Positions 7,495-53,171 of a stretch of 64,000 bases of DNA are shown in pieces. The position numbers and the translations under genes were made by a program. Under the pieces are notes generated by a model. The model had not been told where the DNA came from, did not search any database, and was given only the letters and a program-made list of their open reading frames with translations. Each line of letters starts with the position of its first letter. Position 1 is the first letter of the stretch. Source of the DNA: Prevotellaceae bacterium MN60. GTDB taxonomy: Bacteria > Bacteroidota > Bacteroidia > Bacteroidales > Bacteroidaceae. Location of the stretch: contig FZQZ01000003.1 in NCBI GenBank assembly GCA_900199555.1, positions 1 to 64,000 on the forward strand, read 5' to 3'.

Positions 7495-8742
7495 ATGAAG
7501 AAGAATATACTATTGATACTCGCCATGCTGTTTACTGTGACCACCTCGTGGGCGCAGGTAAACGTGGATGATGACGAGATAGATGAAGAAGACGAGATTA
7601 CAGTGACTGACCAAGAGGGAAACGAAGAGGTCATCGAGTTTCCTGAGGCAATGACTTACGACTTGGACAGTCTGCTGAATCAGTATATGTCTAAGACTTA
7701 CTTAGACGAGCCCGACGAGGACTGTAACATGCGCGACGTGAACCCCACCTACGCCAAGGAGGAGTATGTGGACCGACTGAGCCGCATGCCAACCGTGATG
7801 GAGATGGCATATAACGACGTGGTACAGAAGTTTATAGACCGCTATAGTGGAAGACTGCGCCACTCTATCAGCTTCATGCTGGGAGCCTCCAACTTCTACA
7901 TGCCTATCTTTGAAGAGGCATTAGACCTGTACCAGTTGCCACTGGAGCTGAAGTATCTGCCCATCATCGAGTCGGCACTAAACCCCAAAGCAGTTTCGCG
8001 CGTAGGTGCTACAGGACTATGGCAGTTTATGCTGACCACGGGTAAGCAGTATGGACTGCAGGTGAACTCACTGGTGGATGAGCGCCGCGACCCCGTAAAG
8101 GCTACCTATGCAGCAGCACGCTATCTGAAAGACCTGTACAGAATCTTTGGTGACTGGAACTTGGTGATAGCTGCCTACAACTGCGGACCGGAGAATATCA
8201 ACAAGGCCATTCGTCGCTCTAACGGAGAGAAAGACTACTGGAAGATTTATCCCTACCTGCCCAAGGAAACACGCGGATATGTGCCAGCATTTATTGCTGC
8301 CAACTATATCATGACGTACTACTCGCAGCATAACATCTGTCCGATGAGTACCCGTCTGCCATCGAAGACCGACACCATCATGGTGGACAAGAATGTGCAT
8401 CTGGAGCAGATTGCCGAGGTGGTAGGCATCAACATCGACCTGCTGCGCTCGCTGAACCCCATGTATCGTCGCGACGTGGTGCCTGGAGCATCAGGACTGT
8501 GCCCCATCCGACTGCCACAGACGGAGATTGGCAAGTTTATCGACCTGCAAGACAGCATCTACAATCATCGTGCTGACGAACTGCTGAACAAGAGAACAGA
8601 GGTGGAAGTGAAAGACGACGTTCCCACCTATTATCATAAGAGCAAGCGCTCATATAAGAAACGTAGTGCACGCTATAGCAAGCGCAAGAGCTCTGCCAAG
8701 CGTCGCAAGTCGAGAGCAAGATCAAGGAGGAGAAGAAGATAA
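7495..8742 (+). CDS. Membrane-bound lytic murein transglycosylase (MltD-like) with LysM
   Basis: A 415-residue secreted enzyme with a signal peptide (MKKNILLILAMLFTVTTSWA) and an acidic linker. The SLT/GH23 domain (~140-290) has the catalytic Glu in YLPIIESALNPKA and the motifs GATGLWQFM and AAYNCGPENI. One LysM-like segment follows (VHLEQIAEVVGINIDLLRSL, ~305-350). The last ~45 residues are extremely basic (K/R/S), which may bind nucleic acid or anionic glycans. The enzyme cleaves glycan strands of peptidoglycan to 1,6-anhydro products. It is third in the parAB run, linking segregation genes with wall remodelling. Confidence 0.92.
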   Translation: MKKNILLILAMLFTVTTSWAQVNVDDDEIDEEDEITVTDQEGNEEVIEFPEAMTYDLDSLLNQYMSKTYLDEPDEDCNMRDVNPTYAKEEYVDRLSRMPTVMEMAYNDVVQKFIDRYSGRLRHSISFMLGASNFYMPIFEEALDLYQLPLELKYLPIIESALNPKAVSRVGATGLWQFMLTTGKQYGLQVNSLVDERRDPVKATYAAARYLKDLYRIFGDWNLVIAAYNCGPENINKAIRRSNGEKDYWKIYPYLPKETRGYVPAFIAANYIMTYYSQHNICPMSTRLPSKTDTIMVDKNVHLEQIAEVVGINIDLLRSLNPMYRRDVVPGASGLCPIRLPQTEIGKFIDLQDSIYNHRADELLNKRTEVEVKDDVPTYYHKSKRSYKKRSARYSKRKSSAKRRKSRARSRRRRR

Positions 8743-32248: not shown

Positions 32249-32353
32249 CTACATTTCATGGTATTCGTAATGCATATCGAGTACCAAAAGTCTGACAACA
32301 ATAGCAAGTAGTGCTATCGCGAAAGTCATAAGAATAATCAGAGTAGTCTCCAT
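32249..32353 (-). CDS. 34-residue single-span membrane peptide
   Basis: A minus-strand ORF reading METTLIILMTFAIALLAIVV then RLLVLDMHYEYHEM. It has one hydrophobic helix (~5-24) followed by Arg and a polar, aromatic, acidic tail. The start is preceded by A-rich sequence, as usual in this phylum, and by a good promoter at 32398-32428 that has four phased repeats directly upstream. No homology is recognised. The promoter, the leader and the clean ORF together make it a believable gene; the adjacent upstream gene is a TPR/AraC regulator that could control it. Single-span peptides of this kind often modulate a membrane complex. Confidence 0.6.
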   Translation of the reverse strand: METTLIILMTFAIALLAIVVRLLVLDMHYEYHEM

Positions 32354-32397
32354 ATTATAGATTTTTTAAGTTTCAACTCGCGTTTGATTTTCAATGG

Positions 32398-32428
32398 CAA
32401 AAGTATAACAAAAAGTCCATACCCACAA
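32398..32428 (-). promoter_or_regulatory. Promoter of the 34-residue peptide gene
   Basis: Minus strand: TTG at 32428-32426, 20 bases, TACTTTTG at 32405-32398. The predicted leader is about 40 bases. Confidence 0.65.
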
Positions 32429-32434
32429 GGGTAC

Positions 32435-32516
32435 AGACAAATAGTCGGATGGTTTCAGACAAATGGTCGGACAAAAAGACGGGTTGTCGGACAAAAAGAC
32501 AATCCATCGGATATCT
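32435..32516. repeat. Array of four 20-22 bp phased direct repeats
   Basis: AGAC begins at 32435, 32457, 32477 and 32497 (spacing 22, 20, 20), and TCGGA begins at 32445, 32467, 32487 and 32507 with the same spacing. A typical unit is AGACAAATAGTCGGAT. The array runs from 7 bases upstream of the peptide promoter's -33 to the stop codon of the AraC-type gene. Two-helical-turn spacing against a promoter is what an activator operator array would look like. Confidence 0.8.
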
Positions 32517-33816
32517 ATGCCTCGCTTTGTGTCTGTTTATAGGTCGTTGGGGTCATGCCGTATTTGGCGCGGAAATTACGAGTAAAGGTGTCAGCACTGG
32601 TAAATCCGCTAGCCATACTCACCTGCTCGATAGAGAATTCTCTCTTTTCGTTCATCAGACGTACGGCATAGTCCAGTCGCAACTCACGAACGTATGCTGG
32701 TAGCGACGCATTGTCACTACCCTGTGCGAAGGCAGCACCAATTCGCTCTTTAGAGAGTCCAGTACGATCGATGAGTGTCTGACGACCGAAATTAGCACGC
32801 AGTTTGGGCAGCAGGTTCTTGCCGATAGTCTCAAGGTCGTACTCATAGCCCCATTCTTTGATAAACTGGTCTAACTGTGTATATTTGTCGGCCGCTTCGT
32901 CATAGCGATGGGCTTCTACAAGATATTCACATCCATTGATGCTACCCTCAAGCGACTTTCCGTAATCGCTTTTAGTGTATTCATCATAATAGCGGGCAGC
33001 TTCAGCCTTTTGGCCATGCATTTGGAGCACCTGTGCACGATGAAGAGAGACCAAAGCGCGCAATGCCTTCAATTCCTTTTCTATAGCATTAGGTTCTTTT
33101 TCGTAAATAGTAACAAGCGAGTCCATACGATCCACCCATACCCCAGCCTCATCCATACGATGATTAATGTTGGTAACGGCAATATTCTCTAAAGTTTCTA
33201 TGCAGGCTGCTATCGGTCGACATGTAGGATTGTTGGGTGTACGGAGAACCCACTGATAGGCTTCATCGTAGCTTTTGGCAGCATCGGCGTGACGCTCCAG
33301 CATCATCTGCGTGTCGCCCAAGCAAAGATAGAGTGTCTGTAGTTCGCCGGCACGCAACGGACTATCCACCTCTTTCAGTTTGTCGATAAGGCGAAGTGCT
33401 GTGCGCATGGCATTATCGTAGTCGCGATTGCTATTCAACATAATGACGAGGTTAGTGCCTGCATGAATATATTCCCAAAAGTCCTCAGCAGGCGGATTCT
33501 CTATAGCCACAACGCGACGAAAACACTCGATACACTTATCCATCTGTCCCATCTGAAAATAGGCAACGCCACGATAGCCATCGGCACGTATCGGCGAGAG
33601 CTCACCTATAGCAGCCAGACTATCGGTGACAGCGAGGAAATGCTCAAAGTTGCCAATAAACCTAGCAGCAAGCGCCAGACTGTCGCCATGTGTACGTGTC
33701 ATCTTTTCAGGAAGGCCACCTTGCTTCTTACTCTCTTTTCCACCACAGCCAGTGAGTGTACTTAGGATGATACAAGTTATAATACCAAATGTATAAATGT
33801 ATTTCGAGATTTTCAT
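32515..33816 (-). CDS. TPR protein with C-terminal AraC DNA-binding domain and N-terminal lipobox
   Basis: A 433-residue protein. The N-terminus MKISKYIYTFGIITCIILST continues LTGCGGKES, a textbook lipobox with Cys24. Residues ~50-310 are helical TPR-like repeats (GYRGVAYFQMGQMDKCIECF; LCLGDTQMMLERHADAAKSY). The C-terminal ~100 residues are an AraC/XylS domain (NFGRQTLIDRTGLSKERIGA; IEQVSMASGFTSADTFTRNF; YGMTPTTYKQ). Bacteroidales relatives usually have a transmembrane helix between TPR and HTH; I see none here, so the topology is puzzling. The ATG at 33816 was chosen over an upstream TTG that overlaps the promoter. A signal-responsive regulator of the downstream peptide gene is inferred. Confidence 0.85.
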   Translation of the reverse strand: MKISKYIYTFGIITCIILSTLTGCGGKESKKQGGLPEKMTRTHGDSLALAARFIGNFEHFLAVTDSLAAIGELSPIRADGYRGVAYFQMGQMDKCIECFRRVVAIENPPAEDFWEYIHAGTNLVIMLNSNRDYDNAMRTALRLIDKLKEVDSPLRAGELQTLYLCLGDTQMMLERHADAAKSYDEAYQWVLRTPNNPTCRPIAACIETLENIAVTNINHRMDEAGVWVDRMDSLVTIYEKEPNAIEKELKALRALVSLHRAQVLQMHGQKAEAARYYDEYTKSDYGKSLEGSINGCEYLVEAHRYDEAADKYTQLDQFIKEWGYEYDLETIGKNLLPKLRANFGRQTLIDRTGLSKERIGAAFAQGSDNASLPAYVRELRLDYAVRLMNEKREFSIEQVSMASGFTSADTFTRNFRAKYGMTPTTYKQTQSEA

Positions 33817-33831
33817 TTCATAATTTTTGTG

Positions 33832-33863
33832 CAAAAGTAATCATTTTTACCAAGGTTACCAAA
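33832..33863 (-). promoter_or_regulatory. Promoter of the TPR/AraC gene
   Basis: Minus strand: TTTG at 33863-33860, 20 bases, TACTTTTG at 33839-33832. The ATG at 33816 is only about 10 bases beyond the predicted start of transcription. Confidence 0.7.
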
Positions 33864-53073: not shown

Positions 53074-53100
53074 TTTTTTACAAAGAAAATGATGTTAGAC

Positions 53101-53166
53101 ATAAAAAATGGGACTCCGCTGAGCCCCTAACCTTTGTTAACCTTAAATCTAATACTATGAAAAACA
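53101..53166 (-). ncRNA. Candidate independent small RNA, about 66 nt
   Basis: A complete transcription unit without an ORF. The minus-strand promoter is TTG (53201-53199), exactly 19 bases, TATCTTTG (53179-53172). The RNA would begin near 53166 and read TTTTTCATAGTATTAGATTT, then AAGGTTAACAAAGGTTAG, then the hairpin GGGCTC-AGCG-GAGTCCC (53127-53110, one bulge) followed by ATTTTTTAT. A 33-base unstructured AU-rich body before a strong terminator resembles a base-pairing sRNA. It lies between greA and the TM2 operon in a ~460-base gene-free region. Confidence 0.6.
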
Positions 53167-53171
53167 CGTTG

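Follow-up and report, generated by a model that had tools for sequence, protein, structure and literature searches.

The hybrid two-component systems (HTCS) of Bacteroides are membrane sensors with a C-terminal AraC-type domain; they are described as controlling polysaccharide-utilisation genes, and their predicted sites take the form of direct repeats ~21 bp apart (PMC3878776). The locus described here lies in a 64,000-nucleotide stretch of DNA from Prevotellaceae bacterium MN60 (the window), and it resembles these systems in the family architecture of its regulator and in its repeats; given the HTCS sites, the array geometry as such is not new (PMC3878776). Unlike HTCS, which have kinase and receiver domains, the window regulator has neither: no histidine kinase or receiver domain was found in it at E ≤ 1, and HTCS identity was rejected on this ground. 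The presumptive target also differs, being a gene for a membrane peptide instead of polysaccharide-utilisation functions.

The membrane-bound one-component and co-component regulators CadC, ToxR/ToxS and VtrA/VtrC combine a periplasmic sensor, one membrane helix and a DNA-binding domain, and in the co-component pairs the partner is encoded by a neighbouring gene (PMC9214523), features that intact members of the present family appear to share. Here, unlike in CadC, ToxR and VtrA, the HTH is of the AraC and not of the CadC type and is C-terminal instead of N-terminal, and the putative partner gene stands behind an array and promoter of its own rather than in the regulator's operon. mgrB, in turn, belongs to the PhoP regulon, and the position and conservation of the window peptide would fit a single-span small protein in the regulon of its own regulator. 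MgrB is not known to be encoded beside its sensor or to resemble a segment of it, and PhoQ, unlike the regulators considered here, is a kinase. Co-component regulators and MgrB/PhoQ—the latter a small protein acting on a membrane sensor—nevertheless appear to be the nearest functional analogies (PMC9214523, PMC10576120).

The FopS/GibS sRNAs of Bacteroides (RF04319) act on outer-membrane transport genes (PMC11697453). They are small RNAs from the phylum of the window, as is an RNA element that we find next to some of the arrays; this element is longer, at 112-143 nt as cut, and searches of 10 loci against Rfam gave no family for it. None of the titles and abstracts listed from the open-licence PMC literature describes the module.

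Results

A phased repeat array joins a regulator gene to a membrane peptide gene

On the minus strand, the regulator's stop codon at 32515 is followed by four repeat units (32510-32434), a predicted promoter, a small ORF (32353-32249) and nadB (Table 1). In this orientation the units read CCGAC/T-N5-GTCT at a period of 20/20/22. On the plus strand, AGAC stands at 32435, 32457, 32477 and 32497 (spacing 22, 20, 20), each time followed by TCGGA, just as the original prediction had described it, and the TTG-N20-TACTTTTG promoter and 34-codon ORF were found where it had placed them. It had also named the gene directly upstream as a TPR/AraC regulator, and TPR and HTH_18/AraC matches within 33834-32515 (minus strand) bear this out. 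The two proximal units are identical at 15/16 positions at a period of 22, a value reached by 0/100 shuffles, and within this genome the perfect unit pattern is confined to the window array, sites elsewhere having 1-2 mismatches. The array is not a product of chance.

Table 1. Features of the locus, in positions of the window
Feature	Position	Strand	Remark
TPR/AraC regulator, 439 aa from TTG (433 aa from ATG 33816)	32515..33834	-	internally deleted compared with orthologs
Deletion junction, LPKLRAN/FGRQ	32790..32791	-	orthologs longer here by 163-191 residues
Recognition helix of second HTH (SADTFTRNFRAKYG)	32557..32598	-	residues correlate with box A across the family
Array unit 1 (distal), CCGATGGATTGTCTT	32496..32510	-	
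Array unit 2, CCGACAACCCGTCTT	32476..32490	-	
Array unit 3, CCGACCATTTGTCTG	32456..32470	-	
Array unit 4 (promoter-proximal), CCGACTATTTGTCTG	32434..32448	-	
10-pair hairpin GTCTGTACCC-TTGT-GGGTATGGAC and T-run (TTTTT)	32410..32438	-	overlaps unit 4 and -33 element
Predicted Bacteroidetes-type promoter: TTG 32428-32426, 20-base spacer, TACTTTTG 32405-32398	32398..32428	-	
34-aa single-span membrane peptide gene (METTLIILMTFAIALLAIVVRLLVLDMHYEYHEM)	32249..32353	-	
nadB	32050-30464	-	TIGR00551 match

The window regulator has lost its membrane helix

The window regulator consists of a lipobox-bearing N-terminus, a TPR domain and an HTH_18 domain (HTH_18/HTH_AraC match, E 2e-13). Alignment with its orthologs shows an in-frame deletion: the block between LPKLRAN and FGRQ, present in 11/11 orthologs with an unbroken frame (583-641 aa), is missing from the window protein. 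Its length was taken from seven orthologs with one anchor, L027 having been aligned on another anchor and not counted; the twelfth ortholog, L034, has a frame broken before the HTH and was left out of the structure alignments. The lost block comprises a membrane helix, a coiled coil, a linker and the first helix of the DNA-binding domain. All 11 unbroken orthologs thus have a membrane helix between sensor and DNA-binding domain that the window protein does not, and a hydrophobic segment after residue 250, found by hydropathy in 71/71 regulators of at least 480 aa, is absent from the window copy. A lipobox-like pattern occurs in 54/71 complete regulators.

A structure model of an ortholog (mean pLDDT 71.8, pTM 0.50, parts of the long helix <50) predicts an N-terminal helix, TPR-region helices over 43-344, and a long helix over 348-451 with the hydrophobic segment inside it near 405; a loop then leads to the DNA-binding domain, which begins at 491. 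Projected onto this model, the deletion takes out the long helix and helix 491-504 together with the loop between them. In the model of the window protein, the TPR region and a well-predicted second HTH are kept, and confidence falls below 50 over residues 322-372, that is, the junction and first HTH.

Both recognition helices are retained, and elsewhere in the window regulator protein change is not accelerated (dS being saturated), so that the deletion may have arisen recently, may be tolerated, or may be an error of assembly; with a single assembly, recent loss, variation between strains and misassembly look alike. Since the signal-like start and lipobox are kept, the HTH of the window protein should be exported. 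The module in this genome is probably uncoupled, as the deletion would leave the DNA-binding domain across the membrane from the DNA and minus its first helix. Elsewhere in this genome, the HTH closest to it in sequence matches at E 4e-15 with 31% identity.

Array and regulator are found in the same genomes

We searched 398 genomes of the window's genus with a pattern of 37 bases drawn from the two proximal units, allowing up to 3 mismatches, and obtained 23 sites in 18/398 genomes; the reversed control pattern gave 0 sites in the same 398 genomes. When the DNA-binding domain of the ortholog L028 was used as a query on this set, the close matches (E ≤ 1e-49) were 19 genes in exactly the 18 genomes with the array, followed by G212 (4e-43) and then by weaker paralogs. 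This co-occurrence is partly automatic because array and regulator adjoin. Eighteen of the 23 sites lie directly after the regulator, three divergently upstream of it, one is a second downstream array, and one, in G305, is located in trans, ahead of a copy of the RNA element; the divergent and trans sites are the more independent evidence for a link between regulator and array. In G378 the upstream array is the sole one, and a downstream array and peptide were not found there. Variant arrays at L033/L034 and in G212 (L099) were missed by the 37-base pattern. The named relatives behind the 12 ortholog loci are Prevotella and Xylanibacter, and the following labels from two collections are likely the same loci: L028/L092, L030/L081, L035/L087, L037/L098 and L010/L033. 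Independent variation of repeats and regulator, which the original prediction had named as speaking against it, was not seen in the loci compared.

Many paralogous regulators are followed by repeats of their own

The survey was extended to 60 stretches around paralogous DNA-binding domains, taken from the better-scoring matches and hence not a random draw. Including close orthologs and others besides paralogs, 90 genes were scored by whether the 260 bases past the stop codon contain a 22-bp direct repeat; 61 arrays were accepted by this rule and four by hand (L103, L106, L116 and L131, which fell below it), and L080 and L113 were excluded. Among paralogs with less than 70% HTH identity, 46/70 have a downstream repeat (four of them by hand), and 30 of these 46 a membrane ORF by hydropathy. 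Conversely, 24/70 have no accepted repeat, and 40/70 are without the repeat, a detected membrane ORF, or both; a membrane ORF also follows 9/25 of the genes that have no accepted array. A control across periods at 13/16 identity singled out 22 bp (36/69), followed by 21 bp (14) and 20 bp (7), with the remaining periods in 17-30 reaching this identity in 0-3 of 69. The units have a common AATTTGTCTG-like core preceded by ~8 variable bases (box A). Many Prevotella sensor-regulators appear to switch on an adjoining tiny membrane protein, each via a repeat code of its own.

Other gene arrangements occur as well. At L102 and L109 the repeats are followed by short KxDYxKPT-type peptides and fimbrillin-like genes (named by eye) with no membrane peptide, and a relative, L011, has a similar TPR sensor and membrane helix, but an output domain that is phosphatase-like by eye in place of AraC.

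Variation in the repeats follows the recognition helices

Which protein reads the array? For a correlation of repeat and regulator sequences we kept 43/65 loci, after removing incomplete, poorly registered and near-identical ones and excluding the window. The analysis shows unit distance to correlate with the distance between DNA-binding domains (Mantel r 0.46, p 0.001), and to do so with sensor-domain distance removed (partial r 0.44, p 0.001); given HTH distance, the value for sensor distance is -0.02 when the whole unit is compared and 0.11 when box A is. Shared descent is reduced in this test, not abolished, and some registers are imperfect (L082, L084).

By column, it is recognition helix 2 to which box A differences map (L092 residues 577-588; p 0.0004, the limits of this helix having been set after its top columns were listed, which makes this value partly post hoc), as compared with a p of 0.996 for helix 1; of the 12-residue windows, the top five begin at positions 575-579. 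For the core, the strongest signal falls on K526 and E527 in helix 1 (p 0.02), with best windows starting mostly at 522-525 in that helix, and there is signal at helix 2 as well (p 0.03). The array layout fits direct repeats about two helical turns apart by the -33 element, and across the family it correlates with the helices. The original prediction that the regulator activates the peptide gene through the array is supported in part: co-occurrence and this specificity correlation tie the array, as an AraC-type site, to the adjacent regulator, through which activation would then proceed. For the window itself, whose regulator is internally deleted, the prediction has become doubtful.

The membrane peptide is under coding constraint

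Orthologous loci lacking the peptide ORF had been named by the original prediction as speaking against it. An intact small membrane ORF lies behind an array at 10/12 ortholog loci (L026-L030, L032-L035, L037), fused at L026 to a longer protein; at L032, array and peptides are located upstream of the regulator. The two exceptions, L031 and L036, have an array with no intact peptide after it. Two forms of the peptide can be told apart, one of 29-52 aa, sometimes in tandem, and one of ~67 aa that carries a charged tail (..KNDVIVREVRRNQ..); in the window, a single copy of the short form is present. No Pfam or NCBIfam family matched the 34-aa peptide at E ≤ 1, and a search of 295 genomes of the order gave only its own genome and two weak matches, in frames of 740 and 776 aa. 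A single-sequence search of 100 relatives was convincing for its own genome alone (seven other rows, E 0.4-1), and a profile was needed for this reason.

Built from 14 peptides, the profile matched 55/398 genomes of the genus (E ≤ 0.001), including 16/18 of those with the array. In G316, one of the two array genomes not matched, a pair of short ORFs can be made out by eye (L092); none was seen in the second, G378. Among the strongest matches (E ≤ 2e-9), at least 50/54 start within 1.5 kb downstream of an HTH match on the same strand, a lower bound since the HTH list used was part of the matches listed, and one to be read with the profile's seeds in mind, which came mostly from positions after such regulators and thereby favour adjacency. 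The median distance from peptide start to upstream HTH match is 197 bases. The four without a listed HTH neighbour include one near a contig end (G143) and one 2,245 bases away (G102). Pooled pN/pS values were 0.33 for 11 long peptides, 0.47 for eight first-position short ones, the window peptide among them, and 0.35 for six second-position short ones; for the window peptide against the others the value was 0.42. By these values, codon comparisons show the peptide to be under coding constraint.

The peptide resembles a part of the regulators themselves. Of 70 regulators, 65 gave some match to the peptide profile (E ≤ 10), and in 62 the best match overlaps the membrane segment; regulators outscored 374 other six-frame ORFs (p 4e-37). 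Of the weak whole-genome matches of the profile in long frames, 12 were inspected, ten of which end AraC-like and two kinase-like by eye. A profile of the juxtamembrane tail alone gave a weak signal (p 2e-11; 6 bits for the best regulator and a median of -2.3), the six-frame ORF background being a rough control that includes fused peptides and regulator fragments. This likeness suggests mimicry and feedback within the membrane. As a separate observation, at L026, L082, L083, L085, L089, L090, L094 and L095 the peptide ORF runs in frame into an exported-looking protein (159-436 aa in total).

A hairpin in the promoter and an RNA element behind some arrays

The hairpin in the window promoter (Table 1) has counterparts with 9-10 of 10 pairs (G-U counted) in 23/23 scored arrays that follow a regulator and in 1/10 of the other scored arrays, namely the trans site. 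Scoring covered ortholog-type arrays and not paralog arrays; the variant arrays at L033/L034, outside the scored set, follow a regulator and yet have no such hairpin by eye. The hairpin is probably an intrinsic terminator of the regulator transcript placed inside the output promoter. The full hairpin was also considered as an activator site and rejected, as among the arrays scored it is complete behind the regulator alone, plus the one trans site.

The RNA element has two predicted hairpins, the second of which is terminator-like in some copies. It was seen behind divergent arrays (L080, L081, L088, L026, L027, L032) and also at L029, L031, L091, L097 and L098; at L080 and L088 it lies upstream of genes that we named clpS- and clpA-like by eye. 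L031 further contains, at ~8235-8700, a second array and a second RNA copy followed by what seems, by eye, to be the remnant of a long-peptide tail without its membrane part. In an alignment of 12 copies, 5/14 pairs include at least one sequence changed on both sides, with a covariation term near zero. A model search of 19 genomes gave matches at E ≤ 0.05 in seven, six strong and two weak (E 0.009, 0.035); the strong ones confirm nothing new because all six are copies from which the model was built. The window genome had no match to the element (best E 3.8). The FopS sRNA family (RF04319) was matched at 53100-53167 of the window (minus strand, 74.6 bits) and at 7932-8001 of L098 (minus strand, 79.1 bits), where it ends no more than ~15 bases from the probable start of the ortholog regulator.

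Discussion

What could such an arrangement do? We consider it fairly likely that the locus belongs to a family of self-contained regulator-array-peptide signalling modules in Prevotella, and that the window holds a copy that is probably uncoupled. The intact regulator would, as a rule, have a lipoprotein-type N-terminus, a TPR sensor outside the inner membrane, one membrane crossing and a cytoplasmic, C-terminal AraC-type DNA-binding domain. The direct repeats that it would read, at a period of 20-22 bp, lie after its own stop codon and ahead of the next promoter; once bound to the array, it would activate that promoter and hence a small single-span membrane protein, which in some species may be followed by, or fused to, envelope proteins that look exported. 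Recognition helix 2 would read the variable box A, and reading of the core (TTTGTCTG-like) would involve helix 1 as well as helix 2; in this way paralogs would be insulated from one another. The promoter hairpin would end the regulator transcript, and the peptide, which resembles the regulator's own membrane-plus-juxtamembrane segment, would most likely feed back within the membrane. In the window genome, array, promoter and peptide are kept and the regulator has its in-frame deletion. More tentatively, and at less than even odds, we can picture an expanded family of mutually insulated modules with a two-helix/two-box code, in which the peptide copies or mimics the membrane and signalling helix of its regulator, is produced solely upon firing of that regulator and adjusts its activity through pairing; an RNA arm would be a further part of some modules. 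The window would then be a natural example in which the mimicked segment itself has been deleted.

The role of the peptide is where a competing reading has most weight. Granted that the regulator reads the array, the peptide may be a downstream effector, or may serve the envelope proteins encoded after it as a membrane anchor or secretion leader, a possibility that we take seriously while holding it to be somewhat less than an even chance. The in-frame continuation of the peptide ORF into an exported-looking protein in several relatives speaks for this reading, as do the signal-peptide-like starts of the next genes in some (both by eye), but the peptide is often free-standing and sometimes doubled, and outside the peptide ORFs the profile's best matches are mostly membrane segments of regulators. 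Alternatively, the peptide or a fragment of it might be the ligand of the TPR domain, as in a pheromone system of the RRNPP type. A TPR domain with an adjoining small ORF recalls such systems, and a Foldseek search with the ortholog model returned Rap of pLS20 and NprR among many TPR/PPR solenoids; these matches, however, are weak and generic (E 0.002-0.006) and rank below designed PPR proteins and LGN. Conservation moreover covers the membrane helix and charged tail, and the layout of a signal peptide plus mature peptide was not seen. RRNPP receptors are cytosolic, whereas the lipobox-type N-terminus points to a TPR domain outside the cytoplasm, and altogether we regard this explanation as highly improbable.

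Two further readings concern the regulator. That another protein reads the repeats, the neighbouring regulator being incidental, might be taken from the persistence of array and peptide in the window beside a damaged regulator; the exact co-occurrence in 18/398 genomes, partly automatic between neighbours as it is, together with the helix-to-box correlation, leaves us giving this idea very little credence. Somewhat less remote, and in our judgement still unlikely, is a truncated window regulator that still works, activating or repressing constitutively or without regard to the signal. Its intact frame, its two recognition helices, the unaccelerated protein change and the well-predicted second HTH would be in keeping with function, but a protein that keeps a signal-peptide-like start and lipobox is expected to be exported, and its DNA-binding domain is without the first helix, in a region where model confidence drops below 50 (322-372). 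The main reading is a family of regulator-array-peptide modules; if it is true, the window copy, with its deleted regulator, is the wrong choice for tests of it.

If the module reading is true, naturally paired regulators and operators would make a recognition code of AraC-type proteins readable and testable. It would also suggest how many paralogous one-component sensors avoid cross-talk, and would mark out a class of small membrane proteins linked with the sensors of Prevotella from rumen and gut.
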